Assembly: GCF_001895025.1 (NCBI RefSeq)
Contig: NZ_BCXI01000004.1
Location: 1-64,000 of the forward strand
Reading direction: 5' to 3'
Length of the DNA: 64,000 nucleotides
Origin: Rhodococcus zopfii NBRC 100606 = JCM 9919
Lineage (GTDB): Bacteria; Actinomycetota; Actinomycetes; Mycobacteriales; Mycobacteriaceae
Numbering within the stretch: position 1 is the stretch's first letter; every line of letters begins with the position of its first letter. The notes under the pieces are model-generated. The model was not told where the DNA came from and made no database searches. It was given only the letters and a program-made list of their open reading frames with translations. Below are positions 16,005 through 37,739 of the stretch, piece after piece. The position numbers and the translations under genes were made by a program.

Positions 16005-16016
16005 CGTGGTAGTCCT

Positions 16017-16030
16017 TTAGCGATCGATAA
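16017..16030. promoter_or_regulatory. Candidate TetR operator, site 4
   Basis: TTAGCGATCGATAA is palindromic except at one symmetric pair (TTA.CGATCG.TAA). It ends 25 bp before the ATG of the crotonase at 16056, near the expected transcription start. With site 3 it makes a paired arrangement. Confidence 0.5.
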
Positions 16031-16055
16031 GTAGAGGTCATGGGAAGGACAATCG

Positions 16056-16856: not shown

Positions 16857-16935
16857 CCCCGACGATCTCGGCCCGGCGCCACCCGGCCCCTCGCAGCGCC
16901 GGGCCGCACTCCACCCCCTTGGAAAGGAACCTGTC

Positions 16936-18129: not shown

Positions 18130-18157
18130 TCCACAACACGATTCGAAAGGTGTGAAC

Positions 18158-18919: not shown

Positions 18920-18946
18920 TCCGACCGGTGTGAGAGGACGGGGCCG

Positions 18947-19573: not shown

Positions 19574-20572
<999 letters not shown>

Positions 20573-20596
20573 ACCACATACTTACTGGGGGATAGC

Positions 20597-21754: not shown

Positions 21755-21824
21755 CGAACAACGGAATGGGTGCCCGCGAACGGTCTTCGGTTGCGGGTGC
21801 CCAGTCCCGGCCCGAGGAGTGAGC

Positions 21825-22583: not shown

Positions 22584-22604
22584 CGGGAACGATCGGGCGG
22601 GGAC

Positions 22605-23666
22605 TCAGCCCTGCCCGATCCGGTCGAGGGCGCGCCGGAACAGACTCAGCGTCGTCGCGTGCAGCCGCTGCCCGACCTCGCCGTCGGCCTTGCCCGCGCA
22701 GGCACGCGCATAGGTGCCCTCGAGGATGATGCCGAGTTTGAAGCACGCCAGCACGACATACCAGTCGAGGGCGGACAGGTCCCGATCGGATTGTGCCGCA
22801 TAATGTTCGACGAGCTCGGCGCGGGTGGCGAGGCCGCCCGCGTCGCCGAGGGCACCTCCGATCGTGCTGTCGTCGTTGCCGTGCTCCGGCCACGTCGCCA
22901 GGAGCCAGCCGAGGTCGAGCAGCGGATCGCCGATCGTGCACATCTCCCAGTCGAGGATCGCCGCGACCTCCGGCCCCGACCGGGAGAACATCACATTGCC
23001 GATGTGGTAGTCGCCGTGCAGGATTCCCGGAGTCCACCGCTGCGGCACCGACCGCGCCAGCCAGCCGGCGATCGCATCGACGCCGGGCAGCGGTTCACCC
23101 GGGTACCCGTCCAGCGCGGTGTAGGACTCGAGTTCGCGCAGCCACCGCGGCACCTGCCGTTCGACGAACCCGTCCGGATGTCCGAAATCGCCCAGACCGA
23201 TCGCGGTGTGGTCGACGGACGCGAGGGTCGCGAGCGCATCGATCATCGACAGGCCCATCCGATGCCGGATGCCCGGATCGGAGGCGTGCGGTTCGGGCAG
23301 CCCCACGAACGCATTGAACCCGTCGACCGGTTCGACGAGATAGAACGCGGCACCGGGCCAGACGTCCTCCTCGGGGCACGCCGCGATCAGGCGCGGATGC
23401 GGAACGGCGGTGTCCGACAGTGCGTCCAGCATCCGCATCTCCCGGCGCAGCACGTCGTTGGTGCGCGCCCGCAGATGACGCGGGCCGCGCCGCACCACGA
23501 ACGAGCGGTCGCCGCGGGTGAACCGCACCATCAGGTTCTGGGTGCCGCCGGTCAGTTGCTCGAGACCGGTGATCGGCCCCGGCCCGAACCCGCGGGCGCT
23601 CATCCAGGCATCGAGCGCCGTGATCTCGTCTGCGGACAGCGGCGGGACGTTCGGGGCATCGCTCAT
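22605..23666 (-). CDS. APH-fold acyl-CoA kinase-like protein (ACAD10/11 N-domain-like)
   Basis: A 353-residue aminoglycoside-phosphotransferase-fold kinase. It has the nucleotide loop QLTGGTQNLMVRF, the Brenner motif ILHGDYHIGNVMF (D219, N224) and the metal-binding LDWEMCTIGDP (D239). These phrases are typical of the subfamily encoded next to acyl-CoA dehydrogenases (M. tuberculosis FadE36 and the N-terminal half of ACAD10/11), not of antibiotic resistance kinases. LvaA of Pseudomonas putida, of the same fold, phosphorylates the 4-hydroxyl of 4-hydroxyvaleryl-CoA. The gene is convergent with the SDR/ACAD operon. Its own substrate is unknown. Confidence 0.85.
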   Translation of the reverse strand: MSDAPNVPPLSADEITALDAWMSARGFGPGPITGLEQLTGGTQNLMVRFTRGDRSFVVRRGPRHLRARTNDVLRREMRMLDALSDTAVPHPRLIAACPEEDVWPGAAFYLVEPVDGFNAFVGLPEPHASDPGIRHRMGLSMIDALATLASVDHTAIGLGDFGHPDGFVERQVPRWLRELESYTALDGYPGEPLPGVDAIAGWLARSVPQRWTPGILHGDYHIGNVMFSRSGPEVAAILDWEMCTIGDPLLDLGWLLATWPEHGNDDSTIGGALGDAGGLATRAELVEHYAAQSDRDLSALDWYVVLACFKLGIILEGTYARACAGKADGEVGQRLHATTLSLFRRALDRIGQG

Positions 23667-23786
23667 CGCCGTGACCTTAGTGGCCGTGATGCGCGAGGGG
23701 ACGCGAAAACGGGGAGACCCATTGCGCCGCCAGGGGACTTCGGTAATTGTGAGATGACACCGCACAATCGTCCCGAAAGGATGAAC

Positions 23787-24074
23787 ATGGCACTCACTGC
23801 CCTGCTGGAACTCGAGTTCAAGCCCGACGCCCTCGACGACGCGAAGAAGGTTATGGATCGGGTGCTCGGCGAGACCCGCGGCTTCGACGGCTGCCTCGGC
23901 ATCGAGATCCTCGTGGACAAGGGCAACGAGGCCCGCTGGGTGATCGTGGAGAAGTGGCAGTCCGCCGACCACGACACCGCCTACCGCAAGTTCCGAGCCG
24001 GCCCCGGCGCGATCACCGATCTCGGCCCGTTGCTCGCGGGAGCCCCGAAGCTCACGCACTACGGCGAACTCTGA
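23787..24074 (+). CDS. Small ABM-like (antibiotic biosynthesis monooxygenase fold) protein
   Basis: A 95-residue ferredoxin-like protein. It has the ABM pattern LLELEFKPDALDDAKKVMDRVL, then GCLGIEILVD, WVIVEKWQSADHDTAYRKF and the final HYGEL. The fold includes cofactor-free quinol monooxygenases and heme degraders, but also many uncharacterised dimers. GAAAGG precedes the ATG at good spacing; a second ATG two codons earlier is possible. It stands alone between two minus-strand genes. The reaction cannot be decided. Confidence 0.75.
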   Translation: MALTALLELEFKPDALDDAKKVMDRVLGETRGFDGCLGIEILVDKGNEARWVIVEKWQSADHDTAYRKFRAGPGAITDLGPLLAGAPKLTHYGEL

Positions 24075-24140
24075 CAGTCCGGCGGGCGTGGAACGGTACA
24101 TCCCACGCCCGCCGGTCGTGTCGTCTACGGGGCCGGTCGG

Positions 24141-25118
24141 CTACAGAGCGAGGCGCGCGCGAGCGGCGGCGTATTCCGTGCGGAACCGCGCGATCACGTC
24201 CGCCACGGATGCGACCGCCTCGATCGACCCGACACCGTGCCCGGCACCCCAGATGTCCCGCCACGCCTTCGGGCCGGGCGCGCCACCTTCGGTGGCGGTT
24301 TCCGAACCCAGGTCCATCTTCGACGGATCCGAGGTCGCCAGGTTGTCCGGATCCATGCCCGACGCGGAGATGCTGCCGCGCAGGTAGTTGGCATGCACGC
24401 CGCTGAACAGGTTCGTGTAGACGATGTCGGACGCGGTCGAATCGACCAGCATCTGCTTGTAGGCGTCCGAGGCGTTGGCCTCGGTGGTCGCGATGAACGC
24501 CGATCCGACATACGCGAGGTCGGCGCCGGCGGCCTGCGCGGCCAGGATCGAGTTGCCGTGCGCGATCGATCCGGACAGCAGCAGCGGACCGTCGAACCAG
24601 GTGCGGATCTCCTGCACGAGCGCGAACGGCGACTGGGTGCCGGCGTGGCCGCCCGCGCCCGCGGCGACCGCGATGAGGCCGTCCGCGCCCTTCTCGATCG
24701 CCTTCCGCGCGAACCGGTTGTCGATGACGTCGTGCAGCACGATGCCGCCGTAGGAGTGCACGGCGTCGTTGACGTCCTGCCGCGCGCCGAGCGAGGTGAT
24801 GACGATCGGCACCTCGAACTCGACGACGGTCGCGAGGTCCTCGGCGAGCCGGTCGTTCGACTTGTGGACGATGAGGTTCACCGCGAACGGGGCCGACGGG
24901 GCGTCGGGGTTGTTGGCGTCGTACTTGGCCAGTTCTTCGGTGATCCGCGTCAGCCATTCGCGCAGCTGCGACTGCGGGCGCGCGTTGAGGGTCGGGAACG
25001 AACCGACGATCCCCGCGCTGCACTGCGCGATCACCAGGTCCGGGTTGGACACGATGAACATCGGCGATGCGACGACGGGCAGGCGCAGGCGGTCGCGGAG
25101 GACGGGCGGCAGGCTCAT
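24141..25118 (-). CDS. Nitronate-monooxygenase-fold flavoprotein (paralog 2)
   Basis: A 325-residue FMN TIM-barrel protein that opens LPVVASPMFIVSNPDLVIAQ, with the NMO/enoyl-reductase features AGAGGHAGTQSPFALV and GSGSIAHG-like LLSGSIAHGNSI followed by GADLAYVGSAFIAT. It is only distantly similar to the copy at 19589. AGGAGA precedes the ATG. It lies 29 bp downstream of the SnoaL-like gene on the same strand. As for paralog 1, a CoA-ester reductase or oxidase role within the pathway is more plausible than nitronate detoxification, on context alone. Confidence 0.82.
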   Translation of the reverse strand: MSLPPVLRDRLRLPVVASPMFIVSNPDLVIAQCSAGIVGSFPTLNARPQSQLREWLTRITEELAKYDANNPDAPSAPFAVNLIVHKSNDRLAEDLATVVEFEVPIVITSLGARQDVNDAVHSYGGIVLHDVIDNRFARKAIEKGADGLIAVAAGAGGHAGTQSPFALVQEIRTWFDGPLLLSGSIAHGNSILAAQAAGADLAYVGSAFIATTEANASDAYKQMLVDSTASDIVYTNLFSGVHANYLRGSISASGMDPDNLATSDPSKMDLGSETATEGGAPGPKAWRDIWGAGHGVGSIEAVASVADVIARFRTEYAAARARLAL

Positions 25119-25147
25119 GAACTTCTCCTGGGTGTGTGGTCGGTCGG

Positions 25148-25549
25148 TCAGGCGGGGCCGAGCTGGGCGGCCATGCGTGGGATGAGGGCTTGCAGGCCCT
25201 TGAGCGGCCGGACCATGACCTTGAATCGGGTGATCCGATCGTGCTCGTCCCATTCGATCAGGTCCACCCCGTTGACGTGGATCCCGTCGAGTTCGGCGAC
25301 GAATTCGAGTACTGCCGAATTCGGGGCGTACCACTCACCGACGTAATGGAATCCGGTGTCGCCGCCGAACACGGCCAGGGCCGCGCGCAGGTAGGCGAGC
25401 GTCACGGCTTTACCCTCCTGCGGGGTGAAAACCGCGGGGGACAGGAATACGGCGTCGTCGGCGACGAGTGCGTCGAGTGCCTCGAGATCGTTCGTCTCGA
25501 TCACGCGGTGCCAGCGGTCGACGACGGCTGGGCGGTCGGGGTTCGTCAC
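25148..25549 (-). CDS. SnoaL-like / NTF2-fold protein
   Basis: A 133-residue protein with the cone-shaped NTF2 pattern: DRWHRVIETNDLEALDALVA, DDAVFLSPAVFTP, then EFVAELDGIHVNGVDLIEWD and DRITRFKVMVRP. The fold houses isomerases, hydrolases and cyclases of small polyketides and steroids (delta-5-ketosteroid isomerase is a relative). It begins at a GTG and is the middle gene of the minus-strand group crotonase, SnoaL-like, NMO-like. A palindrome lies about 60 bp upstream. A lactonase or isomerase step is possible but not shown. Confidence 0.75.
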   Translation of the reverse strand: MTNPDRPAVVDRWHRVIETNDLEALDALVADDAVFLSPAVFTPQEGKAVTLAYLRAALAVFGGDTGFHYVGEWYAPNSAVLEFVAELDGIHVNGVDLIEWDEHDRITRFKVMVRPLKGLQALIPRMAAQLGPA

Positions 25550-25607
25550 GTCGGTCGCCTCTCGGTCGCGGATGTCGAGCCGAGCGTAAGGTCCCGGCCG
25601 TTAAACA

Positions 25608-25619
25608 GTCAATGTTGAC
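25608..25619. promoter_or_regulatory. Palindrome GTCAATGTTGAC upstream of SnoaL-like gene
   Basis: The 5-bp arms GTCAA/TTGAC are perfect around TG. The site lies between the crotonase stop and the SnoaL-like start, at a promoter-like position. It differs from the CGATCG set, so a separate regulator may act here. Chance occurrence is not excluded. Confidence 0.25.
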
Positions 25620-25622
25620 GGT

Positions 25623-26480
25623 TCAGGGGTGGAACGGGGGGCTCGGCAGGTCGTCGCCGAACAGATCGGGGGTATCAGTGCTGACCCGGTCGGGGAACAC
25701 GGCCGCGCGCTTCTCGAGGAACGCGGCGATACCCTCGCGGGCATCGGGGCCGACGCCGCGGAGATTGATGCCGCGTGATTCGGCGCGGTGCGCGAGCATC
25801 GGGTGATCCGACCCGAGCGAGCGCCACACGAGCTGCCGCGACAGCGCCACGGACACCGGCGCCGAGTGCTCGGTGATCCGGCGGGCCAGCGCGTACGCCT
25901 CGTCGAGCACCGATTCCCTCGGGTGGAGCGAGTAGAGGAGACCGGCCTGGTGGGCCTCGGCGGCGTCGACGAGGCGGCCGGAATAGATCCAGTCCAGCGC
26001 ACGCTGCAGCGGCACCAGCTTGGGCAGGAACCACGACGAACACGATTCGGGAATCAGTCCGCGACGGTTGAAGACGAATCCGATGCGCGCGTCGTCGGCG
26101 GCAAGCCGGAAGTCGGCGGCCAGCGTCATGGTGATCCCCACCCCGACGGCAGGGCCGTTGATGGCGGCGACGATCGGCTTGCGCGATTCGAACATGCGCA
26201 ACACGACGCGCCCGCCGCCGTCTCGCCGCAGATCGTCGCCGGAGTGCTCGTCCTGCCACTCGGCGAACGTGTCGGCCCCGGCGGACAGATCGGCTCCCGC
26301 GCAGAACGCTCGTCCGGCACCGGTGAGAACGACGGCGCGGACGTCGTCGTCGGCGTCGCAGCGATCGTAGGCGTCGATCAGCTCGTACTCCATGGTGGTC
26401 GTGAAGGCGTTGAGCTGGTCGGGACGGTTCAAGGTGATCGTGGCGATCCCGTCGCCGATGGCGAGTCGAATGTGCTCCAT
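25623..26480 (-). CDS. Enoyl-CoA hydratase/isomerase (crotonase) family
   Basis: A 285-residue crotonase with the oxyanion-hole motifs AGRAFCAGADLSAG and IVAAINGPAVGVGITMTL. The stretch RIGFVFNRRGLIPESCSSWFLP carries a glutamate at the second catalytic position. The 20-residue insertion after the first motif (DTFAEWQDEHSGDDLRRDGG) and the ESCSSW phrase are typical of actinobacterial EchA-type hydratases. It is transcribed away from the third TetR gene across a CGATCG palindrome, and is followed by the SnoaL-like and NMO-like genes. Confidence 0.88.
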   Translation of the reverse strand: MEHIRLAIGDGIATITLNRPDQLNAFTTTMEYELIDAYDRCDADDDVRAVVLTGAGRAFCAGADLSAGADTFAEWQDEHSGDDLRRDGGGRVVLRMFESRKPIVAAINGPAVGVGITMTLAADFRLAADDARIGFVFNRRGLIPESCSSWFLPKLVPLQRALDWIYSGRLVDAAEAHQAGLLYSLHPRESVLDEAYALARRITEHSAPVSVALSRQLVWRSLGSDHPMLAHRAESRGINLRGVGPDAREGIAAFLEKRAAVFPDRVSTDTPDLFGDDLPSPPFHP

Positions 26481-26500
26481 GCGGTCAGCATCCCATGGTT

Positions 26501-26516
26501 ACTGAACGATCGCTAG
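26501..26516. promoter_or_regulatory. Candidate TetR operator, site 5
   Basis: ACTGAACGATCGCTAG lies 20 bp before the crotonase start on the minus strand and 65 bp before the TetR start on the plus strand. It could repress both. It shares 13 of 16 bases with site 2. Confidence 0.5.
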
Positions 26517-26581
26517 GGCAACCTTCCGCCCGGTACCTCTACGCTGTGGGTTGTCGACCGGTGACGGGATGGGAAACGGAA

Positions 26582-27187
26582 ATGTGTGCTGCGAAGGGCG
26601 CGCCGGCCGGCGCCGGCCGTCAGGTGATCCTGGATTCCGCGCTGCGGAACATGAACCAGCGCGGCTACCACGGCACATCCATGCGCGACATCGCACGCGA
26701 CGCCGACATGACGGTCGCGTCGATCTACCACCACTTCAAATCCAAGCAGGAGATCCTGCAGGACATCATGACCCGGGCGCTGCACGACGCGATCGCGATG
26801 ACCCGCGGCGCCCTCCTGCGCGCGGGAGGGGCGCCGGGAGACCAGCTCCAGGCGGTCGTACGCGCCTGGATCATGTTCCACACGACCCGCCAGTCCGATG
26901 CCCTCGTCGGCGCCACCGAACTCCGCAGTCTCGACTACGAAGGCCGGCGGCTCGTCGTCGCACTGCGCGACGAGCAGGAGAGCGTCTTCCGCGACATCAT
27001 CGATCGCGGGGTCGAGGACGGCGCGTTCACCACCGCGCTGCCCCGCGATGCGGCGCGCGCGATCATTCACATGGGCCAATCGGTCTGCACGTGGTGGCGA
27101 CCCGACGGGCCCCTGAAGCCCGAGGAGCTCGCGGACCGGTACGCGGACCTCGCGCTGGCCATGGTGCAACCCGCGGACAACCGGTAG
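26582..27187 (+). CDS. TetR-family regulator (third, distinct)
   Basis: A 201-residue repressor with the helix-turn-helix GYHGTSMRDIARDADMTVASIYHHFKSKQEIL at about residues 21-52 (motif parts: MRDIARDADMT and SIYHHFKSK). The ligand domain includes FHTTRQSDALVGATELRSL, typical of the KstR2/FadR-like actinobacterial TetRs that bind acyl-CoA. It is less similar to the two paralogs at 13403 and 18947 than these are to each other. ATG 26582 keeps the operator outside the coding sequence; a GTG at 26561 is an alternative. It is the likeliest regulator of the downstream kinase operon. Confidence 0.85.
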   Translation: MCAAKGAPAGAGRQVILDSALRNMNQRGYHGTSMRDIARDADMTVASIYHHFKSKQEILQDIMTRALHDAIAMTRGALLRAGGAPGDQLQAVVRAWIMFHTTRQSDALVGATELRSLDYEGRRLVVALRDEQESVFRDIIDRGVEDGAFTTALPRDAARAIIHMGQSVCTWWRPDGPLKPEELADRYADLALAMVQPADNR

Positions 27188-27288
27188 CGCAACCACTTTC
27201 ACGCGCCGCTGGATCGCTGGGCGGCGCCGCGGGCGTACGCCGCTGAATCGCAGTGGGGATCCACGCCGGGACCGCGCTCTTCGATCAA

Positions 27289-27304
27289 GCGAACGATCGA
27301 TCGG
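27289..27304. promoter_or_regulatory. Candidate TetR operator, site 6
   Basis: GCGAACGATCGATCGG is nearly symmetric (CGA.CGATCG.TCG). It lies in the 274-bp gap between the third TetR gene and the kinase gene, about 90 bp upstream of the kinase promoter. Confidence 0.45.
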
Positions 27305-27381
27305 CTGTGTCGGCGGGAGCGGGTAGGCGGCTGCTGCCCCACATGCAAAATTGCTGGATATGTGCGGCGATGCACCCACGG

Positions 27382-27410
27382 TTGACACCAAGCGTGTCCC
27401 GGGTCACTAT
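27382..27410 (+). promoter_or_regulatory. Sigma-70-type promoter of the kinase/ACAD operon
   Basis: A perfect -35 TTGACA at 27382-27387 is followed after 17 bp by CACTAT at 27405-27410 (4 of 6 matches to the -10 consensus). The expected start is near 27417, just before the operator at 27419. Confidence 0.65.
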
Positions 27411-27418
27411 TGTTCCAT

Positions 27419-27434
27419 CCGAACGATCGTTTGG
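27419..27434. promoter_or_regulatory. Candidate TetR operator, site 7, at the transcription start
   Basis: CCGAACGATCGTTTGG is palindromic at 14 of 16 positions. It covers the expected +1 to +17 region of the promoter at 27382 and ends 27 bp before the kinase ATG. A bound repressor here would block initiation. Confidence 0.6.
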
Positions 27435-27461
27435 TAAGAACTTCTGGAAGGGGTTCATCCG

Positions 27462-28523
27462 ATGGCCGCATCCCCGGCGGGCGCGCTTGCCGAACTCGAC
27501 CTCGACGCGTTGAGCGCGCATCTGCGGGCGACGCTCGACGGCGGCCTCGCGGGGCCGCTGACCGCCTCGCTCATCGGCGGCGGCCGCTCGAATCCGACCT
27601 ATCGCCTGAGCGACGGTGAGAGTGAGTGGGTGCTGCGCCGACCTCCGTACGGTCACGTCCTGCCCAGCGCGCACGACATGAAGCGCGAGTACACCGTCAT
27701 CGACGCGTTGGCTGGTTCCGCGGTCCCGGTCCCCGTCGCCGTGCACCTGTGCGAGGACACCGCGGTGCTCGGCGCGTCGTTCTATCTCATGAACCTGGTC
27801 GACGGCCGCCCGGTCGGCACGACCGAACAGGCCGAGGAACTCACGCCGGGACAGCGCCGCGGCCTCGGTCTCGCCCTCGCCGATACGCTCGCCGACCTCC
27901 ACGAGATCGACCCGGCCACGGTCGGACTGGACGATTTCGGCAGACCCGACGGCTATCTCGATCGACAGCTGAAACGCTGGGCGCGGCAGTGGGAGTCGTC
28001 GAAGACCGCGGAGCGGCCCGAGGTGGCCGTCCTCCTCGACAAGTTGGGGCGGGCGCTGCCCCGAACCCGATTCCCGGGCATCGTGCACGGTGACGTCAAG
28101 CTCGACAACGTGCTCGTGTCCCGGGACGACCCGGCTCGTATCGTCACGGTATTGGACTGGGAGATGGCCACTCTCGGAGACACACTCGCCGATGTGGGCA
28201 TCATGCTCAGCTTCTGGGACGTTCCCGGGCAGCCGGCCAATCCCATCACCCGGGGGCTCGCGACACTCGACGGGTTCCCCACCCGTGCAGAACTTCTCGA
28301 GCGTTATGCGTCGCGTCGCGGCATCGAGCTGCCCGAGGTCGACTGGTACGTCGTGTTCGCCGACTTCAAGATCGCCGTCATCATGGAGGGCATCGCGGCC
28401 CGGCACGCGCAGGGCGAGACCGTCGGCGAGGGTTTCGACGGGGTCGCCGGCATGACGGAACCGCTACTGCAACGGGCGCTCGAACTGGCGACTCGGTCGT
28501 CCGATCCCGAACTGCGCCGCTGA
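27462..28523 (+). CDS. APH-fold kinase, probable 4-hydroxyacyl-CoA kinase (ACAD10/11 N-domain-like)
   Basis: A 353-residue kinase with the nucleotide loop IGGGRSNPTYRL, ATP lysine region EWVLRRPP, the Brenner motif VHGDVKLDNVLV (H209, D211, N216) and LDWEMATLGD (D232, E234). Subfamily phrases such as LVDGRPVG and LADLHEID also fit the N-terminal kinase half of ACAD10/ACAD11. The ACAD gene follows after 25 bp, so the vertebrate fusion is here two genes. By analogy with LvaA and ACAD11 it should use ATP to phosphorylate the 4-hydroxyl of an acyl-CoA. GGAAGGGG precedes the ATG. An antibiotic kinase is unlikely given the neighbours. Confidence 0.85.
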   Translation: MAASPAGALAELDLDALSAHLRATLDGGLAGPLTASLIGGGRSNPTYRLSDGESEWVLRRPPYGHVLPSAHDMKREYTVIDALAGSAVPVPVAVHLCEDTAVLGASFYLMNLVDGRPVGTTEQAEELTPGQRRGLGLALADTLADLHEIDPATVGLDDFGRPDGYLDRQLKRWARQWESSKTAERPEVAVLLDKLGRALPRTRFPGIVHGDVKLDNVLVSRDDPARIVTVLDWEMATLGDTLADVGIMLSFWDVPGQPANPITRGLATLDGFPTRAELLERYASRRGIELPEVDWYVVFADFKIAVIMEGIAARHAQGETVGEGFDGVAGMTEPLLQRALELATRSSDPELRR

Positions 28524-28548
28524 CATCCAGAGAACAGGAGTCACCACA

Positions 28549-29778
28549 ATGGATTTCGCGTACAGCCCGAAGGTCGAGGAGTTGCGGAGCAAGCTCACCG
28601 CATTCATGCAGGACCGGATCCTGCCGGCCGAGGTGATCGCGGCGCAGCAGCTCGCGAGCAAGCCCGATTACTGGGGCGCCCCGCCGATCATGGCGGACCT
28701 CAAGACCGCGGCCAAGCGGCAGGGACTGTGGAACCTGTTCCTCCCCGAGGACGGCGGTGCCGGTCTGACCAACCTCGAGTACGCGCCGCTCGCCGAACTC
28801 ACCGGCTGGAGCCCACATCTCGCTCCCGAAGCCCTGAACTGCAATGCGCCGGACACCGGCAACATGGAACTGCTCGCCCGCTTCGGCACGGACGAGCAGA
28901 AGGTGCAGTGGCTCGCCCCGCTCCTGGACGGTGAGATCCGCTCCTGCTTCTCGATGACCGAGCCGGATGTCGCGAGCTCGGACGCCTCCAACGTGCGGCT
29001 CGAAATCGCCGACGACGGCGACGACTGGGTGCTCACCGGCCGCAAGTGGTGGACCACCGCCGCACTCCGCGACGACACCCGGGTCGCGATGGTCATGGGC
29101 GTCACCGACCCGGACGCCCCGGCCGGTTCGCGGCACTCGATCGTCCTGGTACCCATGGACACTCCGGGGGTGCACGTCGAACGTTCCACCACGGTCCTCG
29201 GTTTCGACGACCGACACGAGGGCGGGCACGGCGAGATCGTCTACGACCGCGTCCGTGTTCCCAAAGCCAATCTGCTCGGCCCTCGCGGCAAGGGTTTTGC
29301 CGTCGCGCAGGCACGTCTGGGCCCGGGCCGGATCCACCACTGCATGCGCCTGATCGGCATGGCCGAACGCGCCATCGCGCTCACGACCGAGCGGGCCCGC
29401 ACCCGGGTCGCGTTCGGGAAACCGCTCGCCGACGAGGGAGTCGTGCAGGCCACCGTCGCCGACGCCCGGATCAAACTCGACGCGGCACGCCTGATGGTGC
29501 TGCGCGCCGCGTGGCGGATGGACGTCGAGGGCGCGAAGGCCGCCCGTCACGACATCGCCGCCGCGAAGGTCATGGTGCCGCTGACCGTCAAGTGGATCCT
29601 CGACGAGGCGATCCAGATCTTCGGCGGCGCGGGACTGTCCCAGGACACGCCGCTCGCGATGCTCTACTCGCAGGCACGGTTCCTCCAGATCGCCGACGGA
29701 CCCGACCAGGTGCACCGTCGTTCGCTCGCCCGCGCCGAGTTCGGTGCCACTCCGCCCCTGCGAGAGGTCCGTGGCTGA
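28549..29778 (+). CDS. ACAD10/11-type acyl-CoA dehydrogenase
   Basis: A 409-residue FAD enzyme with phrases shared with the dehydrogenase half of vertebrate ACAD10/11: LNCNAPDTGNMELLARFG (98-113), FSMTEPDVASSDASN (134-148), RKWWTT and LGPGRIHHCMRLIG (257-270). At the MCAD catalytic Glu position the sequence is IADGPDQVHR, giving Asp (D383) by eye alignment. In this subfamily the flavoprotein acts on 4-phosphoacyl-CoA, eliminating phosphate on the way to 3-hydroxyacyl-CoA. It is placed between the kinase (25 bp) and the MHS transporter (58 bp). Confidence 0.88.
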   Translation: MDFAYSPKVEELRSKLTAFMQDRILPAEVIAAQQLASKPDYWGAPPIMADLKTAAKRQGLWNLFLPEDGGAGLTNLEYAPLAELTGWSPHLAPEALNCNAPDTGNMELLARFGTDEQKVQWLAPLLDGEIRSCFSMTEPDVASSDASNVRLEIADDGDDWVLTGRKWWTTAALRDDTRVAMVMGVTDPDAPAGSRHSIVLVPMDTPGVHVERSTTVLGFDDRHEGGHGEIVYDRVRVPKANLLGPRGKGFAVAQARLGPGRIHHCMRLIGMAERAIALTTERARTRVAFGKPLADEGVVQATVADARIKLDAARLMVLRAAWRMDVEGAKAARHDIAAAKVMVPLTVKWILDEAIQIFGGAGLSQDTPLAMLYSQARFLQIADGPDQVHRRSLARAEFGATPPLREVRG

Positions 29779-29836
29779 CCGGCGAACCCCGCCGACCGCT
29801 CTTTCCTTCACCCCGCCCGACAACGAGGACGATGCG

Positions 29837-31186
29837 ATGTCTGAAACACGAACCCACACACACTCTCTCGATACTCCGGCAGCGCCGGCCCCACGTGCCG
29901 GTCGTGCTGCCGTCGCGTCGGCGATCTCGACATCGCTCGAGTGGTACGACTTCTTCATCTATTCGACAGCCGCAGCACTGGTGTTCAACACCACCTTCTT
30001 CGCCACCGACAGCGAAGTGGTCGCTGCGGTGAACTCCTTCGCGACCGTCGCAGTCGGATTCATCGCCCGCCCGATCGGCGGGGTCCTCGCCGGGCACTTC
30101 GGTGACAAATTCGGCCGCAAACCCGTTCTCGTGGCTGCCGTGGTGCTCATGGCCATCGCGACATCGCTGATCGGCTTCGTGCCCACCACCGAGATCATGT
30201 GGCTCGCACCGATGATCCTGGTGACCTTGCGCATCTGTCAGGGCCTGGCCGTCGGGGCGCAGTGGGGCGGTGCCGTCCTGCTGGCCACGGAGAACGCCCC
30301 GGCGAACCGGCGCGGGTTCTTCGGAAGCTTCGCGCAACTCGGCGTCCCGATCGGCGTGGTCCTCGGCAACGTCGTGTTCCTGGTGATCACCTCGACCGTC
30401 GCCCAGGATTCGTTCCTGTCGTGGGGCTGGCGCATTCCGTTCTGGATCAGTCTCGTGATGCTGCCCGTGGCATTCGCGATCCATCGCTACCTGGAGGAGA
30501 CCCCCGAGTTCAAGAAGATCGCGGAAAAGCTCGACCAGGCTCCGGCCCTGCGGCGTTCCCCGATCCTCGAAGTGCTGCGCAAGAACCCGGGAACCGTGCT
30601 CATGGCTGCCGGCTCGAACGCGATCGGCGTCATGTTCTTCTACACGATGATCACCGGTTCGGTGCAGTACGCCACGACCTACCTCGGTCTCGAACGGTCG
30701 ACGGTGCTCACCTTCATCCTGATCGCGTGCCTGCTGCAGATTCCGCTGGTGCCGCTGTTCGGGCATCTGTCCGACCGCGTCGGCCGCAAGCTGATCTTCG
30801 GTGTCGGTACCGTCGCCATGATGGCGTGGGGCGTGCCGATGTGGCTGCTGATCGGCGCATCCGGACCCGGCACCGTGTGGCCGTTCGCGATCGCGGTGAT
30901 CGTCGGCGTCGTCGCCATGTCGTTCCAGACAGGCACCCAGGGCACGTTGTTCTCCGAGCTGTTCCCGCCCGAGGTGCGCTTCTCCGGGGCGTCGCTCGGC
31001 TACCAGATCTCCGCGATCATCGGTGGCTTCTCTCCGATGATCATGGTGCTGCTCATCAACGGTGAGGCCGGAAACGCATGGAAGGTGGGCGTATTCCTCG
31101 CCGTCGCCGCCGCGATCGGACTGCTGTGCCTGATCGCCATCGTCCGCAGGTACTCCCAGCCGCACGAGTCCGCGCACGCAGCCTGA
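29837..31186 (+). CDS. MHS-family (MFS) metabolite:proton symporter
   Basis: A 449-residue transporter with 12 helices. It opens AISTSLEWYDFFIYSTAAALVF, the classic start of the MHS group (ShiA, ProP, KgtP). The loop 2-3 motif GHFGDKFGRKPVL and the loop 8-9 motif HLSDRVGRK are complete. MHS carriers bring in carboxylates and other small polar acids with protons. The start is the ATG before SETRTHTH. Being in the operon with the CoA ligase and kinase, it probably imports the acid that the pathway degrades; LvaF of the levulinate cluster is a comparable partner. Confidence 0.9.
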   Translation: MSETRTHTHSLDTPAAPAPRAGRAAVASAISTSLEWYDFFIYSTAAALVFNTTFFATDSEVVAAVNSFATVAVGFIARPIGGVLAGHFGDKFGRKPVLVAAVVLMAIATSLIGFVPTTEIMWLAPMILVTLRICQGLAVGAQWGGAVLLATENAPANRRGFFGSFAQLGVPIGVVLGNVVFLVITSTVAQDSFLSWGWRIPFWISLVMLPVAFAIHRYLEETPEFKKIAEKLDQAPALRRSPILEVLRKNPGTVLMAAGSNAIGVMFFYTMITGSVQYATTYLGLERSTVLTFILIACLLQIPLVPLFGHLSDRVGRKLIFGVGTVAMMAWGVPMWLLIGASGPGTVWPFAIAVIVGVVAMSFQTGTQGTLFSELFPPEVRFSGASLGYQISAIIGGFSPMIMVLLINGEAGNAWKVGVFLAVAAAIGLLCLIAIVRRYSQPHESAHAA

Positions 31187-31210
31187 CCGACACGAACAAG
31201 GAGTAGATCG

Positions 31211-32749
31211 ATGGTGGACTTCCCGGACACCCACGCCGCGGCGGACCCCGGCCGTCCTGCGTACATCATGGCGGACAGCGGTACCGTCGTGACCTATCGC
31301 GAACTGGTCGACGACTCGCGTGACATCGCAAAGCTGTTGTGGTCGAGGGGACTTCGCCACGGAGATTGTGTTGCCGTGCTGATGGAGAACAGCGCGCCGT
31401 TCCCGAAGATAGCCTGGGCGGCGCAGCGCATCGGTCTGCGCTACGTCACGCTGTCGACGCGGCTGCTGCCCGACGAGGTCGCCTACATCCTCGGTGATTC
31501 GGGGGCCCGGGCGCTGTTCACCAGTGTCCGCCATCTCGATGCCGCGGCCGACGCCGCGGATGCGGTGCCGGGGCCGGGACACCGATTTGCCGTCGACGGT
31601 TCCGGCCGGGGATTCGAGAACCTTTCGGAAGCACTGGCTTCCGTTCCTCACGAGGTCGTGCCGGACGAATGCGAGGGTGTCGACCTGCTGTACTCGTCCG
31701 GCACCACCGGCCGGCCCAAGGGGGTCGTGGCGGAACTGCCGCTGCACCCGCTCGGAACCCCGCCGGGGGTGGCTGCGCTGCTGCACGATCAGTGGGGGTT
31801 CGACCGGGACAGTGTCTACCTGTCCCCGGCGCCGCTGTATCACGCTGCGCCGCTGCGCTTCACGATGACCGTGCACCGGTACGGCGGTACCGCGATCGTA
31901 ATGGAGCGATTCGACCCGGAGCGGGCACTCGAACTCGTCGAACGCTACCGGGTGACCCACACCCAGATGGTGCCCACCATGTTCATCCGGATGCTCAAGC
32001 TGCCGGACGAGCAGCGGACCGGACACGACGTGTCGTCGCTGCAGGTGGTGATCCACGCCGCCGCGCCGTGCCCCCCGGACACCAAGCGCGCCATGATCGA
32101 CTGGCTCGGGCCGATCATCCACGAGTACTACTCGTCCACCGAGAACAGCCTGTTCACGACGCTGGACTCGCACGAATGGCTGGCCCATCCCGGATCGGTG
32201 GGCCGGGCGATCCTAGGTGTGCCGCACATCCTCGACGAGTCGGGCAACGAGCTGCCGCCCGGTGAATCCGGCACGATCTGGTCCGAGGGGGGTCTGCTCT
32301 TCGAATACCTGAACGACCCGGCGAAGACCGCCGAATCCCGCAACGATCGGGGTTGGACGACGGTCGGCGATCTCGGCTACGTCGACAACGACGGCTTCCT
32401 CTACCTGTCGGACCGCCGTGCCGATCTGATCCTGTCCGGCGGCGTGAACATCTATCCGCGCGAATCGGAGGACGTGCTCGTCGTACACCCGAAGGTCGCC
32501 GACGCTGCGGTGTTCGGCATTCCGCACGACGAACTCGGCGAGGCCGTCCACGCCGTCGTGCAGACCGCACCCGGCGTGGTCGCCGACGGGGCGCTCGAGG
32601 AGGAACTGCTCGCGTTCTGCCGTGAGAGGCTGTCGACCTTCAAATGCCCGCGCCGGATCGATTTCGTCGACGAGCTGCCCCGCCACGCCACCGGCAAGCT
32701 CTACAAGCGGCTGTTGCGTGACCGCTATGCCCGGCAGACGGTCTCGTGA
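31211..32749 (+). CDS. Acyl-CoA synthetase (AMP-forming)
   Basis: A 512-residue ANL enzyme with the P-loop YSSGTTGRPKG (161-171), the A5 motif YYSSTENS, the A7 motif TVGDLGYVDNDGFLYLSDR, the hinge RADLILSGGVNIYPRE and the C-terminal catalytic lysine in HATGKLYKRLL. The residue run VAELPLHPLGTPPG after the P-loop lacks long-chain FadD signatures, so a short- or medium-chain or substituted acid is likely. AAGGAG precedes the ATG. The following crotonase overlaps its stop by 4 bp. It should activate the imported acid to its CoA thioester, the first committed step. Confidence 0.9.
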   Translation: MVDFPDTHAAADPGRPAYIMADSGTVVTYRELVDDSRDIAKLLWSRGLRHGDCVAVLMENSAPFPKIAWAAQRIGLRYVTLSTRLLPDEVAYILGDSGARALFTSVRHLDAAADAADAVPGPGHRFAVDGSGRGFENLSEALASVPHEVVPDECEGVDLLYSSGTTGRPKGVVAELPLHPLGTPPGVAALLHDQWGFDRDSVYLSPAPLYHAAPLRFTMTVHRYGGTAIVMERFDPERALELVERYRVTHTQMVPTMFIRMLKLPDEQRTGHDVSSLQVVIHAAAPCPPDTKRAMIDWLGPIIHEYYSSTENSLFTTLDSHEWLAHPGSVGRAILGVPHILDESGNELPPGESGTIWSEGGLLFEYLNDPAKTAESRNDRGWTTVGDLGYVDNDGFLYLSDRRADLILSGGVNIYPRESEDVLVVHPKVADAAVFGIPHDELGEAVHAVVQTAPGVVADGALEEELLAFCRERLSTFKCPRRIDFVDELPRHATGKLYKRLLRDRYARQTVS

Positions 32750-33549
32750 CCGCTGTCGAGGTCACAGCGCCGATCGCCGGCGTCGTGCAGGTGACCTTGA
32801 ACCGCCCCGACGCCCTCAACACGCTCACCGCGGAGGCGGTGGCCGAGTTCCGCGACGTCCTGACCGGGATCGCCGCGGACCGGTCGTGCCGTGTTGTGGT
32901 GCTCACCGGCGCCGGACGGGCGTTCAGCGCCGGGCTGGACCTCAACGGCTACGGCGACGACGAGCGGATCGCTGCAGAAGGGGAGGTCGGCCGGATGCTC
33001 TCCCGGCAACAGGACATCGCCGGGCTCGCGCAGCAGCTCCACGAACTCCCGCAGCCGGTGATCGCCGCCGTCAACGGGCCCGCGGCGGGCGGCGGCCTCG
33101 CGCTGGTGTGCGCGAGCGACATCCGCCTGGCCGCGACCCCGGCGATCTTCGCAGTCTCCTTCATCCGGGCGGGCTTCTCGGCGTGCGACATCGGGGTGTC
33201 GTGGCTGCTGCCCCGGATCGTCGGGGCGGGAGCCGCCCACGAGCTCATGCTCACCGGCCGGCGTTTCGACGCGGCCGAGGCGTACCGCATCGGCCTCGTC
33301 GGCGCGATCCTCGAACCCGACGAGCTGATCGACTCGGCGCTCGCCAAGGCCCGGGAGATCATGCCGAACCCGCCGCTGTCGGTGGAGCTCACCAAGCAGG
33401 GCATGTGGCTCGCGCTCGAGACCCCGTCGTTCGACGCGTCGGTGGCGTTCGAGAACCGTCAGCAGGTGTTCACCGCCCTCACCGAGGACCGGCGGGAGGC
33501 GACCGCCGCGTTCCTGGAGAAGCGGCCGCCCACCTATCGGCGCAGGTAG
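32746..33549 (+). CDS. Enoyl-CoA hydratase/isomerase (crotonase) family
   Basis: A 267-residue crotonase. The first oxyanion motif is AGRAFSAGLDLNGYGDDERI and the second VIAAVNGPAAGGGLALVCA. The catalytic stretch is AGFSACDIGVSWLLPRIVG, with Asp at the second catalytic position in place of Glu, a feature of dienoyl-CoA isomerase-like and other non-hydratase members. The GTG start overlaps the CoA-ligase stop (GTGA). It closes the operon, and a strong hairpin follows. Confidence 0.88.
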   Translation: MTAVEVTAPIAGVVQVTLNRPDALNTLTAEAVAEFRDVLTGIAADRSCRVVVLTGAGRAFSAGLDLNGYGDDERIAAEGEVGRMLSRQQDIAGLAQQLHELPQPVIAAVNGPAAGGGLALVCASDIRLAATPAIFAVSFIRAGFSACDIGVSWLLPRIVGAGAAHELMLTGRRFDAAEAYRIGLVGAILEPDELIDSALAKAREIMPNPPLSVELTKQGMWLALETPSFDASVAFENRQQVFTALTEDRREATAAFLEKRPPTYRRR

Positions 33550-33563
33550 GCCAGGAGACCGCA

Positions 33564-33602
33564 CGGGTCCCGCGGCCCGGTCCTACGAGGGCCGGGGACC
33601 CG
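33564..33602 (+). terminator. Hairpin terminator after the catabolic operon
   Basis: CGGGTCCC (33564-33571) pairs with GGGACCCG (33595-33602), with additional GGCCC/GGGCC pairing inside. No T-run follows, as is common in actinobacteria. It lies 15 bp past the crotonase stop. Confidence 0.6.
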
Positions 33603-33645
33603 CGGGCGTCAGGGTCCGGAGACTCACAAGGTAAGGTCCTAGGTC

Positions 33646-33771
33646 ATGGACATTCTCGAAATCGTGGGCATGGCAGTCGTGATCATCGTGGTGCTGCAGG
33701 TGATCCTCGGTTCGCTGGCGCTGCTGGCGATCTCGACGGTCAACCCGCACTTCATGCAGCGCAACAAGTAG
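33646..33771 (+). CDS. 41-residue membrane peptide
   Basis: A short frame from ATG to TAG encodes one hydrophobic helix (VGMAVVIIVVLQVILGSLALLAI, seen as two parts: VGMAVVIIVVLQ and VILGSLALLAI) between an acidic N-terminus (MDILE) and the polar tail NPHFMQRNK. AAGGT-rich sequence precedes the ATG. It sits alone between the catabolic terminator and the convergent metallopeptidase gene. A single-pass regulatory or complex-stabilising peptide is plausible; I do not recognise a family. Confidence 0.45.
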   Translation: MDILEIVGMAVVIIVVLQVILGSLALLAISTVNPHFMQRNK

Positions 33772-33798
33772 GCGCTGACCCGGCAGGAACGCTGCGCT

Positions 33799-33822
33799 GG
33801 GGCTGCCGGACCCGTCAGCCCC
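33799..33822. terminator. Small bidirectional hairpin
   Basis: GGGGCTG (33799-33805) pairs with CAGCCCC (33816-33822). It overlaps the stop of the convergent metallopeptidase gene and lies 28 bp past the small membrane peptide gene. Confidence 0.4.
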
Positions 33823-34165
33823 AACCGAGTTCGTGGAGGCGGTCTTCCTCGATGCCGAAGTAGTGCGCTATCTCGTGGATCACGGTGACCGCCACTTCGT
33901 GCACCACGTCGTCCTCCGACTCGCAGATGTCGAGGATCGCGTCCCGGTAGACGGTGATCGTGTCCGGCAGCGACCCCGCGTAGTGCGAGTCGCGTTCGGT
34001 GAGCGCAATCCCGTGGTACAGGCCCAGTAGGTCCGGCTCCTCGTCGTGCCGCGCGTCGACCAGCACCACCACGTTGTCGATCGCCTCGGCCAACTGCTGC
34101 GGAATCAGATCCAGAGCCTCGGAGACCAGTTCGTCGAAGCGCTCCTCGTTCATCCGGACACTCAT
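33815..34165 (-). CDS. Minimal zincin-like metallopeptidase family protein (Rv3836-like)
   Basis: A 116-residue protein with the zinc motif HEIAHYFG near residues 98-105, preceded by the amphipathic DDVVHEVAVTVI. The small size and motif fit PF06262 (DUF1025, a minimal gluzincin fold). The ATG start overlaps the stop of the septum-formation gene (ATGA), so they are coupled as in the Rv3835-Rv3836 pair. A second ATG four codons in (MNEERF) is an alternative. The substrate is not known for the family. Confidence 0.82.
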   Translation of the reverse strand: MSVRMNEERFDELVSEALDLIPQQLAEAIDNVVVLVDARHDEEPDLLGLYHGIALTERDSHYAGSLPDTITVYRDAILDICESEDDVVHEVAVTVIHEIAHYFGIEEDRLHELGWG

Positions 34166-35217
34166 CGCGCCCCGTTCGGGAGCGGAGCTGCGCCCGGCAA
34201 CGGCGTCGGCAGCGACCGTCCCTCCGGCACCGGCGGCGGCGCGACCGGCGGCTGTCCGTCGATCAGGATGTCGCCCTTCGCCGAACCGGTGATCGACGCG
34301 AAGCCGCCACCCTCGACCTGCTTACCGACCGAGCAGTTCACCCTGCGGCTTCCCGCGAGCCAGCTGTCGAAATCCAGGTTGTCCCAGAACAGCGTCAGCG
34401 TCTTGTTGCGCAGCGCCTCCGGATCACCCAGATAGGCGTTGGTGCTCTCGGTGCACGTCGACTCCAGGAACTTGTCCTGGTCGGCCATGCTCGGCACCCC
34501 GCCGGGGAACTGGGGGGACAGATCCACCACCGCCGCAACCTCGAACGCATGCGGCTGGGAGCACTCCACCGGATCGGCGGGCACTCCGTTGTTGATACCG
34601 ATGCACGTGCCGACCTCCCAGGCACGGGACTGGTCCTGATCGGCGACGCGGCCCTCGATCGGCAGCAGGTTGCCGGTCGTCGACGAGAACTGCAGCCCGC
34701 ACCGCAGGGTCCGTTCACCGGCGTCCCAACCGGCTTCACCCGGATTGATGAGTCCGACGCTGAACTTGCCGTGCGGATCGAAACGGCCCTGCAGGTAGTC
34801 CATGGCGGCGGGCGCGCAATGCTCATCGCGCAGCTCCGTGAAACGCAGGACCGACGGGAACCGTGAACCCGGACCCCACTCCGCACCCGGGAACACACTC
34901 AGGTCGATGTCCTGAACCACCTCGAACAGGTGGGTCTGCTCGCAGTCGACCTTCGCCAGATCGCTGGCGTCGATCGCCGACCAGGTCAGGCAGTCGCCGC
35001 CGACCGCGGTCCCGAACGCCTCGCCGGCGACCGCGCCCGTCGTGAACAGGGCACCGCCGGTCCCGGCGGAATCGTCGCCCGAACCGCCGAACCCGGCGAC
35101 CACCGCGGTCGCGACGGCGGCGAGTACCGCGCCCGCCGCGACCAGTATCAATGCGCGGCGGGTCAGCTTCGCGGACGGCGGTCGCCGCGTGGACTGCTGC
35201 TCGTTCTCCTCGGCCAT
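34162..35217 (-). CDS. Septum-formation family membrane protein (Rv3835-like)
   Basis: A 351-residue protein with a short cytoplasmic N-terminus ([17 protein letters not shown]), one membrane helix ([21 protein letters not shown], residues about 27-47) and a large outer domain. It carries repeated Cys/Trp/Phe phrases of the septum-formation domain ([21 protein letters not shown] and [27 protein letters not shown]), a tandem duplication of one motif. The C-terminal tail is Pro-rich. A longer frame from 35229 adds MMDA; the ATG at 35217 is preferred. It is encoded upstream of the metallopeptidase and divergent from the ankyrin gene. Confidence 0.8.
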
Positions 35218-35264
35218 CGCATCCATCATGCCTGCCGTCCGCGCGCGGGGTAACTTCGGTGTTC

Positions 35265-35657
35265 GTGACCGACGACCCGATCGACCCCGAGGTCCAGGAA
35301 ATCGCGCAGCGCATGTTCGACGCGGCGCGGGCCGGTGCGGCCGACACTCTCGCCGCCTACCTCGATGCCGGGGTCCCGGTGAACCTCACCAACAGCACCG
35401 GCGACACCCTGCTGATGCTCGCCGCCTATCACGCGCATCCCGCAGCCGTGCGGGTCCTGATCGAGCACGGTGCCGACATCGACCGGCTCAACGACCGCGG
35501 GCAGTCGCCGCTCGCGGGCGCGGTCTTCAAGGGAGCGGAAGAGGTGGTGCGGGCGCTCGTCGCGGCCGGTGCCGATCCGCACGCGGGCCATCCCACCGCG
35601 GAGGATGCCGCGCGGATGTTCGGGAGGGACGACTACCTGCAACTCTGGCACCGGTAG
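35265..35657 (+). CDS. Ankyrin-repeat protein
   Basis: A 130-residue soluble protein with about three ankyrin repeats: [31 protein letters not shown], then [31 protein letters not shown], and a final partial repeat with [13 protein letters not shown] (each motif quoted in parts of the repeat). Such small proteins act as binding platforms. It starts at a GTG ([11 protein letters not shown]); another GTG two codons upstream is possible. serS follows after 11 bp, so it is probably the first gene of that operon. Confidence 0.82.
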
Positions 35658-35668
35658 GCTTCCCTCTC

Positions 35669-36931
35669 GTGATCGACCTCAAGTTCCTCCGCGAGAATCC
35701 CGATGTCGTCCGTGCCTCGCAGCGCACCCGAGGTGAAGACCCCGGTCTCGTCGACGCCCTGCTCGAGGCCGACGAGACCCGTCGCGCCGCGGTGCTGGCC
35801 GGCGACAACATCCGCGCCGAGCAGAAGGCGCTGGGTAAGAAGGTCGGTCAGGCGTCCCCCGAGGAACGCCCCGCGTTGCTCGCCGGGTCGAAGGAACTCG
35901 CCGCGAAGGTCAAGGAACTCGAGGCCGAGCAGCACGCCGCGCAGGAAGCCCTCGACCGCGCGCACCTGGCGATCTCCAACGTCGTGCAGGAAGGAGCCCC
36001 GGCCGGCGGTGAGGACGACTTCGTCACCCTCGAGACCGTCGGGGAACTGCCCAGCTTCGACTTCGAACCGAAGGATCACCTCACGCTCGGCGAGTCGCTG
36101 GGCCTGATCGATATGGAACGCGGCGCGAAGGTATCCGGTGCCCGCTTCTACTTCCTCACCGGCTACGGCGCGCTGCTGCAGCTCGGCATGCTTCAGCTCG
36201 CTGCGCAGAAGGCCACCGCCAACGGTTTCACGATGATGATCCCGCCCGTGCTCGTGCGGCCCGAGATCATGCAGGGAACCGGCTTCCTCGGTCAGCACGC
36301 CGACGAGGTGTACCGCCTCGAGGAGGACGACCTGTACCTCGTCGGTACCTCCGAGGTGCCGCTGGCCGGCTACCACTCGGGTGAGATCATCGACCTGTCC
36401 GCGGGGCCGAAGCGATACGCCGGCTGGTCGTCGTGCTTCCGCCGCGAAGCGGGCAGCTACGGCAAGGACACCCGCGGCATCATCCGCGTCCACCAGTTCG
36501 ACAAGGTGGAGATGTTCGTCTACTGCAAGCCCGAGGACGCCACCGACGAGCACCAGCGTCTGCTGGCGTGGGAACGCGAGATGCTCGCCGCGATCGACGT
36601 GCCGTACCGGGTCATCGACGTCGCCGGCGGCGACCTCGGTTCGTCCGCGGCCCGCAAGTTCGACTGCGAGGCGTGGGTGCCGACGCAGGAGCGCTACCGC
36701 GAACTGTCCTCGACGTCGAACTGCACCACCTTCCAGGCCCGCCGCCTCGGCGTGCGGTACCGGGACGAGAACGGCAAGCCGCAGATCGCCGCGACCCTCA
36801 ACGGCACCCTCGCCACCACTCGCTGGCTCGTCGCGATCCTCGAGAACCATCAGCAGGCCGACGGTTCCGTGAAGGTGCCCGCCGCGCTGGTGCCGTTCGT
36901 CGGCCGAGAGGTGCTCGAACCGGTCGGCTGA
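35669..36931 (+). CDS. serS: Seryl-tRNA synthetase
   Basis: A 420-residue class II synthetase that charges tRNA-Ser (and tRNA-Sec where present). The N-terminal long coiled coil (about 30-100) precedes motif 1 ([20 protein letters not shown]), motif 2 ([21 protein letters not shown]) and motif 3 ([16 protein letters not shown]). The serine-binding [10 protein letters not shown] is intact. It begins at a GTG ([14 protein letters not shown]) as in other actinobacteria; the in-frame upstream extension is rejected. It corresponds to Rv3834c in the conserved order. Confidence 0.97.
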
Positions 36932-36954
36932 GGTCGCACGGGGCGGGCGTGTAC

Positions 36955-37006
36955 GACGCGCCGGCTGCCTCCGGCGAGCTGACGCGCCGGCTGCCTTCGG
37001 CGAGCG
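36955..37006. repeat. Two tandem 26-bp hairpin units behind serS
   Basis: Two copies (36955-36980 and 36981-37006) differ at two bases. Each holds CGCCGG-loop-CCGGCG with 6-bp arms. The pair lies in the convergent gap between serS and the thioesterase gene and may terminate transcription or stabilise the serS mRNA end. Confidence 0.6.
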
Positions 37007-37108
37007 AATGTATCCTTCGTCTCCGTCAACCGAATGGGTGTACCACTCGCTCGATCGGAAGGTGCGGTGCCCGGCCGGGGCGTCCCTCGTGCAGGTGCGC
37101 GGTCCGGC

Positions 37109-37591: not shown

Positions 37592-37739
37592 GTCCTCGAC
37601 CGTAAAACACTGGCTACGGCGCTGCCGGGATGAGACGATACTGTGCATGTCCCGTCGATGTTGACTTGCACCGACCACATCACTGACCGCCCGCGCCGTC
37701 GCGTACTCCGCGACGCGCGAACTCGTCCCGCTCTACGGC

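Follow-up and report, generated by a model that had tools for sequence, protein, structure and literature searches.

Why should a kinase of the APH fold be encoded immediately upstream of an acyl-CoA dehydrogenase (ACAD), at the head of a run of genes that continues with a carrier, a CoA ligase and a crotonase? This question is raised by a locus in a 64,000-nucleotide stretch of Rhodococcus zopfii NBRC 100606 = JCM 9919 (contig NZ_BCXI01000004.1, positions 1 to 64,000 of the forward strand; hereafter the window), whose genome measures 6.3 Mb. The comparisons summarized here indicate that a seven-gene cassette (about 25626-33610), built around a kinase-dehydrogenase pair related to mammalian ACAD10 and ACAD11, probably enables this soil bacterium to import and degrade a hydroxylated carboxylic acid through phosphorylation, most likely at C4, and elimination of the phosphate. 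A preliminary description of this DNA had reported five of the genes, from kinase to crotonase; their positions and order are all as it gave them, the motifs that it quoted (HGDVKLDN, LDWE, QARLGPGRIHHCMR and the others) are all present in the translations, and the gene families are confirmed by Pfam and NCBIfam profile matches. The hydratase and the TetR regulator of the seven-gene unit fall outside the coordinates then given.

The dehydrogenase and its partner kinase

The assignment of the dehydrogenase to the 4-phosphoacyl-CoA type, as a relative of ACAD11, is well supported by database matches, by phylogeny and by its predicted active site. In the PDB, its matches are 4hr3 (7.7e-118), human ACAD11 (2wbi, 5.8e-116) and mouse ACAD11 (2e-111), and the best ordinary ACAD, human SCAD, follows at 6.5e-42. 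In a maximum-likelihood tree of 59 rows, which includes human and mouse ACAD11 and no LvaC or ACAD10 row, the protein lies within a 48-row clade containing ACAD11 (support 100/99), and seven ordinary ACADs, six from the same genome and human SCAD, are split off by a 100/100 branch. This tree samples nine of the 80 best-match loci, with the near-duplicates L025, L026 and L027, which are among the closest relatives, omitted, and the program warned of long branches in the ordinary rows and in two own-genome paralogues. The grouping with ACAD11 and not with ordinary ACADs is the outcome that the preliminary description had looked for in such a tree. Inside the ACAD11 clade, the window protein belongs to a group of 11 rows (100/100) with a stem of 0.55, separate both from ACAD11 itself and from another branch, in which 4hr3 and the C46 copy of the host are found.

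The residues point in the same direction. In ACAD11, R626, H634 and R637, which are modelled to hold the 4-phospho group, and the base D753 are required, and their change stalls the turnover of 4-phosphoacyl-CoA, according to PMC12440821. By alignment, all four are kept in the window dehydrogenase as R256, H264, R267 and D383, the latter within IADGPD, where Asp replaces Glu as the catalytic base (8v3v, an ACAD11 chain with a mutated base, has N in this place). The same set is found in the six dehydrogenases of this genome that stand beside a same-strand kinase, and it is kept neither in human SCAD nor in any of the six other own-genome ACADs aligned, which are a sample of a total of 66 dehydrogenase matches.

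The kinase is predicted, again with good support, to be a hydroxyacyl-CoA kinase of the LvaA and ACAD10/11 type. Its fold, assigned by sequence, matches 9o56 (1e-58), 3dxp (2e-58) and mouse ACAD11 (8v3v, 7e-48) in the PDB, and beyond the four best sequences the next chain appears at 3e-10. For both enzymes the resemblance thus greatly exceeds what chance would give. In the alignment it retains R75, E76, R168, D211, N216 and D232, which comprise the catalytic Asp and Asn, a metal-site Asp and the Arg residues modelled to contact CoA, so that the equivalents of D220, N225 and two Arg of the mammalian kinase are kept. R75 and R168 align with R86 and R176, the published CoA-contacting residues; R176 was matched after a one-residue offset between the numbering of the paper and that of the chain, and the R86 of the paper is two residues off, so the equivalence of R75 is our own reading. 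Since a dehydrogenase of the ACAD11 clade with the residues for 4-phosphoacyl-CoA is joined by a kinase with its catalytic and CoA-binding residues kept, the chemistry proposed for the pair, though not its exact substrate, is well supported.

Gene arrangement, presence or absence of the block and its probable control

The preliminary description had also taken the split pair, together with the lack of a small LvaB-like partner, as the mark of a distinct actinobacterial version, and this view, as argued there, does not hold. Among 80 named-record loci, which are the best matches to the window dehydrogenase, nearly all from Actinobacteria by record title and an uneven sample of bacteria, the kinase lies directly upstream in 78 (all except L069 and L080), with a median gap of 27 bp, and the phosphate and base residues are present in all 80. 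In each of these 78 loci the kinase frame reaches a stop codon before, or no more than 60 bases from, the point where the dehydrogenase match begins, which indicates separate genes and not a fusion; kinase and dehydrogenase are also separate genes, 0.9-1.7 kb apart, in four plasmid records from other phyla or classes (Burkholderia, Ideonella, Deinococcus and Cytobacillus), none of them actinobacterial. As far as these records reach, separate genes are the ordinary arrangement in Actinobacteria. Furthermore, when the host and 60 relatives were surveyed, 51 of the 61 genomes had such a dehydrogenase at 1e-100; out of 80 dehydrogenases listed, at least 50 have an APH kinase within 2.5 kb, at least 48 of them on the same strand, and this proximity occurs in at least 38 of the 51 genomes. 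The 25 bp between kinase and dehydrogenase leave no room for a small gene and none fits inside the run, LvaB not having been sought elsewhere in the genome. Its absence is no mark of a new version, because the levulinate cluster of Pseudomonas citronellolis likewise had no lvaB homologue found (PMC6692424). In PMC11342911, the main text of which does not name LvaB, separate Burkholderia orthologues of kinase and dehydrogenase substitute for the corresponding parts of ACAD10. An actinobacterial version of the system did not turn up in the results of our literature search, and nothing wider is claimed.

Comparison with the known systems places the pair among them. Mammalian ACAD11 and ACAD10 (PMC12440821, PMC11342911) use the same two enzyme families, and ACAD11 shares the key residues, but they are single fused proteins, whereas the window has two genes in a catabolic cassette with a TetR; ACAD10 also has an HAD domain that the window pair lacks, a comparison made without an ACAD10 alignment. 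The cluster of P. citronellolis LA18T resembles the window in having kinase and dehydrogenase without LvaB, and differs from it in two genes that the window unit lacks, one for a histidine phosphatase and one for a regulator of the sigma54 type (PMC6692424). Of the relatives with a name, Rhodococcus sp. SMB37 (dehydrogenase identity 91%) and JCM 9791 (90%) come closest, and the Rhodococcus megaplasmids pRB98, pGD02.2.1 and P23 pA carry the same pair with a dehydrogenase 83-85% identical, but with different partners, including a CaiB-type transferase, a tyrosine phosphatase, SurE and PPDK-like enzymes. The pair is thus more widely kept than the unit, since both on the plasmids and at more distant loci it has other partners.

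In Ideonella (L151 9132-9824) and Deinococcus (L152 9933-10631) the pair is flanked by a histidine phosphatase gene, of which a Burkholderia locus has a homologue (L150 about 2655), and a tyrosine phosphatase is found near it in two Rhodococcus plasmids. A phosphatase partner as a general actinobacterial rule was considered and rejected: PF13350 was seen near the dehydrogenases, by eye, only at G007:C186 and G036:C6, other phosphatase families not having been searched there. With the histidine phosphatase reported in P. citronellolis and the HAD domain of ACAD10, a phosphatase is possibly a recurring partner outside Actinobacteria.

The features of the locus are collected in Table 1. The five genes from kinase to crotonase are co-directional; with 29834 taken as the start of the carrier, the intervals between them measure 25, 55, 24 and -4 bp. 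For two of them the best NCBIfam model remains below its cut-off, namely TIGR00883 (metabolite/H+ symporter; 363.8 versus 443.45 bits) for the carrier and FadD4 (633 versus 850 bits) for the ligase.

Table 1. Features of the kinase-dehydrogenase locus in the window
Feature	Position	Strand	Basis and remarks
Enoyl-CoA hydratase (crotonase family), divergent	25623..26480	-	PF00378 1.6e-49; NF006109 above cut-off
Possible TetR operator, variant TGAACGATCGCTAGG	26502..26517		Between divergent hydratase and TetR; 3 mismatches to pattern
TetR-family regulator	26579..27187 (as scanned)	+	TetR_N and TetR_C_24
Probable TetR operator CCGAACGATCGTTTGG	27419..27434		Ends 27 bp before kinase start; conserved core
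Predicted hydroxyacyl-CoA kinase, APH fold, LvaA / ACAD10-11 kinase-domain type	27462..28523	+	PF01636 5e-52; PDB matches; residues
Predicted 4-phosphoacyl-CoA-type acyl-CoA dehydrogenase, LvaC / ACAD10-11 type	28549..29778	+	N, middle and C domains; residues; tree
MHS-type metabolite:H+ symporter	29834..31186 (start taken at 29834)	+	PF00083 Sugar_tr; PF07690 MFS_1
AMP-forming acyl-CoA ligase, FadD4-like	31211..32749	+	PF00501 7e-70
Crotonase / enoyl-CoA hydratase	32746..33549	+	PF00378 (ECH_1) 2e-54
Second kinase of this APH type, about 2 kb from the cassette	22605..23669	-	PF01636 7e-38; catalytic and CoA-binding residues kept

Comparison with related genomes suggests that the cassette comes and goes as a whole. 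In G007, of the same genus, contig C11 matches window positions 13277-25625 at 89.7% and 33611-37999 at 89.4%, and the two flanking matches are separated by 62 bp; all seven genes of the cassette, from the divergent hydratase to the crotonase (Table 1), are missing, as one unit corresponding to about 25626-33610 of the window. G007 has a kinase-dehydrogenase pair of its own on contig C186, amid other genes. The seven genes are found at the same site as in the window in G012 and between an NMO gene and an SDR gene in G001 (= SMB37). Because they are absent together in the first genome and present in the other two, in one of them at another site, the seven genes appear to behave as one unit, and loss in G007 or gain in the others are both possible. 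The G+C content of the block is like that of its flanks (0.679 versus 0.688 and 0.686), and no clear repeats were found at its ends, where there is only a 9-bp direct match.

The unit is probably under the control of its own TetR, a regulator more than 55% identical being present in eight of the 12 other loci of the window dehydrogenase clade. The palindrome core is exact before the kinase in the window, G012, SMB37, G015 and the near-identical G007 and GD02 loci (with C allowed for the final T of its right arm), and a 9-bp half of the palindrome occurs upstream in pRB98 and P23, where the core is partly kept, and in the distant actinobacterial loci L056-L058. The variant TGAACGATCGCTAGG is kept in three species (window, G012 and SMB37). 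When 3 mismatches are allowed and both strands counted, the pattern occurs 10 times in the window, where 3.4 matches are expected; since 2 of 100 shuffles reach 10, the weight of the palindrome rests on its conservation and place and not on the count. On these grounds we infer that the TetR binds the palindrome upstream of the kinase. In the host genome (G000), exact CGAACGNNCGTTYG matches with an AT centre are confined to the kinase and to three sites in C1:131045-131628, and C14 and C39 hold two further exact matches whose centres differ. One of the five genes scanned at the C1 sites (L170 9045-9628) is AurF-like and none belongs to beta-oxidation, so that they give no clue to the substrate. 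A regulon search allowing one mismatch to CGAACGNNCGTTYG was set aside, with 96 forward matches versus 22 in the control, and its loose matches were not used. Scans for sigma-70 promoters and terminators gave nothing clearly above chance. Window 25560-25630 and L183 7660-7730 share an identical CGTTAAACAGTCAATG before a SnoaL-like gene, which is perhaps another operator.

Beside the cassette, at 14099-22583, lie two enoyl-CoA hydratases, a quinone-oxidoreductase-like gene, a thiolase, two SDRs, a TetR, a PA1024-type NMO and an ordinary ACAD, a beta-oxidation set that is kept in G007 without the cassette.

The proposed pathway and its alternatives

In the pathway that these genes suggest, the MHS carrier would import a hydroxy acid and the ligase would form its CoA thioester; the kinase would phosphorylate the hydroxyl, most likely at C4, and the dehydrogenase, using FAD without net oxidation, would eliminate the phosphate to give a 2-enoyl-CoA, which the crotonases would hydrate for completion by general beta-oxidation. 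The TetR, acting at the palindrome just upstream of the kinase, would switch the unit on. Import, CoA ester formation, phosphorylation of a 4-hydroxyl and beta-oxidation had already been proposed in the preliminary description; this logic of the genes is coherent, clade and residues fit it, and the part that fell away is the claim of a distinct version.

Several observations weigh against this pathway. The run of carrier, ligase and crotonase follows the pair, in the window order, in just three genomes (window, G012 and G001); in G005 (= JCM 9791), an assembly of 950 contigs that is 75% complete, the short contig with the pair has carrier and ligase but lacks crotonase and TetR, and its kinase is shortened. 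The three genes need not define the chemistry of the pair, given that the full run is limited to three genomes and partial in G005. In addition, 30 of the 80 surveyed dehydrogenases have no APH within 2.5 kb among the matches listed, the dehydrogenase of G036 has no adjoining kinase, and P. putida requires LvaB (PMC6692424), which is not seen in the window run.

The strongest competitor, to which we would give about one chance in four, keeps the chemistry and changes the substrate: the hydroxyl would not be at C4, or the acid would be something other than a plain fatty acid, candidates being 5-hydroxy, branched, cyclic or aryl-substituted acids, and the window clade would have diverged to fit it. 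The long stem of this clade agrees with such a shift, as do the six pairs present in the genome (see below), which suggest a division of substrates, and the NMO-type flavoproteins that accompany the clade. An NMO-type gene is found in 11 of its 13 loci (the window, where the PA1024-type copy is at 19589, L054, L055, L134, L137, L138, L009, L010, L056, L057 and L058; not L136 and L011) versus one of the other 75 named-record loci, of which 57 are longer than 21 kb and the rest shorter; the 13 loci are not all independent, L137 and L010 being near-identical and L057 and L058 close. However, those phosphate and base residues that were compared do not differ from the ones in ACAD11, and small acids would suit both the ligase and carriers of the MHS type.

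A strict levulinate or 4-hydroxyvalerate pathway, that is, a counterpart of lvaABCDE in which a neighbouring SDR would act as LvaD, seems unlikely. In the lva operon of P. putida (PMC6692424, PMC11342911 and PMC12440821), too, kinase and dehydrogenase are encoded separately and accompanied by a CoA ligase and a carrier, and the window kinase and dehydrogenase correspond in role to LvaA and LvaC and the AMP-binding ligase, by family and not by orthology, to LvaE; SDRs are found nearby, at 18083-18919 and 21819-22583. Nevertheless, there is no SDR inside the block that comes and goes and no gene, and hence no LvaB, between kinase and dehydrogenase, and where the lva operon has the sigma54-type LvaR and an acetate-type symporter the window unit has a TetR and an MHS carrier, a comparison made without an alignment to LvaA or LvaC. 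Finally, an ordinary ACAD operon next to an unrelated antibiotic or sugar kinase, a reading which the profiles might invite in that Pfam and NCBIfam name the kinase no closer than APH or phosphotransferase, is highly improbable in view of the tree, the residues, the adjacency in 78 of 80 loci and the score of the best NCBIfam model, APH(3'), of 35 bits versus a cut-off of 205. Phosphorylation and elimination at C4 of an imported hydroxy acid remains the preferred reading, and the enzymes belong to a known system to which this cassette is a well-supported addition.

A multiplied pair and a second kinase

The pair in the cassette is one of six in this genome (C4, C46, C1, C15, C31 and C37), all with the diagnostic dehydrogenase residues; in the five other than C4 the kinase comes after the dehydrogenase rather than before it, and four of the six branch outside the ACAD11 clade. 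The C15 kinase is divergent, and its Arg sites are not kept in the alignment. Broken dehydrogenase pieces were observed at G000:C15:7459-8005; one of them, interrupted by a stop, matches the window dehydrogenase at 67% identity over 69-141.

The second kinase of the window (Table 1) has no phospho-type dehydrogenase of its own alongside. At a distance of 874 bp, and on the other strand, there is an ordinary ACAD (20597-21754), which is without the phosphate and base set and has Gly at the position of the usual catalytic Glu. Among three relatives of the second kinase examined, the copies of pRhX5 and Sphingomonas JE1 adjoin phospho-type dehydrogenases, and no such gene is the direct neighbour of the copy carried by the R. 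qingshengii CX-1 plasmid. In R. erythropolis pRhX5 (L184 5965-9908), kinase, phospho-type dehydrogenase and second kinase stand in a row, the latter being 50% identical to the first kinase of the window. A single dehydrogenase may be supplied by two kinases, which is a reasonable reading of these loci, and since the R form yields roughly four times as much product with the kinase part of ACAD10 (PMC11342911), mirror-image forms of a hydroxy acid would be a natural guess for the two.

Tentatively, and with less confidence than in the pathway itself, phosphorylation followed by elimination can be viewed as a general and multiplied strategy of Rhodococcus, in which the six pairs would strip hydroxyls from different acyl-CoAs and, at some loci, two kinases of different selectivity, for example for mirror-image hydroxy acids, would feed one dehydrogenase, as in the window, with its two kinases, and in pRhX5.

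The correspondence between the residues and an adjoining kinase, the multiplication of the pair, the loci with two kinases and the seven-gene block that comes and goes would all be worth following. Within this genome, an adjoining kinase on the same strand goes with the Arg/His/Arg and Asp set in six of six cases, and the six other dehydrogenases aligned all lack the set, a rule that would allow a simple renaming of many genes now called 'acyl-CoA dehydrogenase family' and 'phosphotransferase family' in Actinobacteria, and the six pairs form a ready-made panel for finding out how substrates are selected. The cassette would provide a physiological, and probably inducible, setting for an enzyme pair whose human fusions, ACAD10 and ACAD11, were assigned only in 2024-2025.

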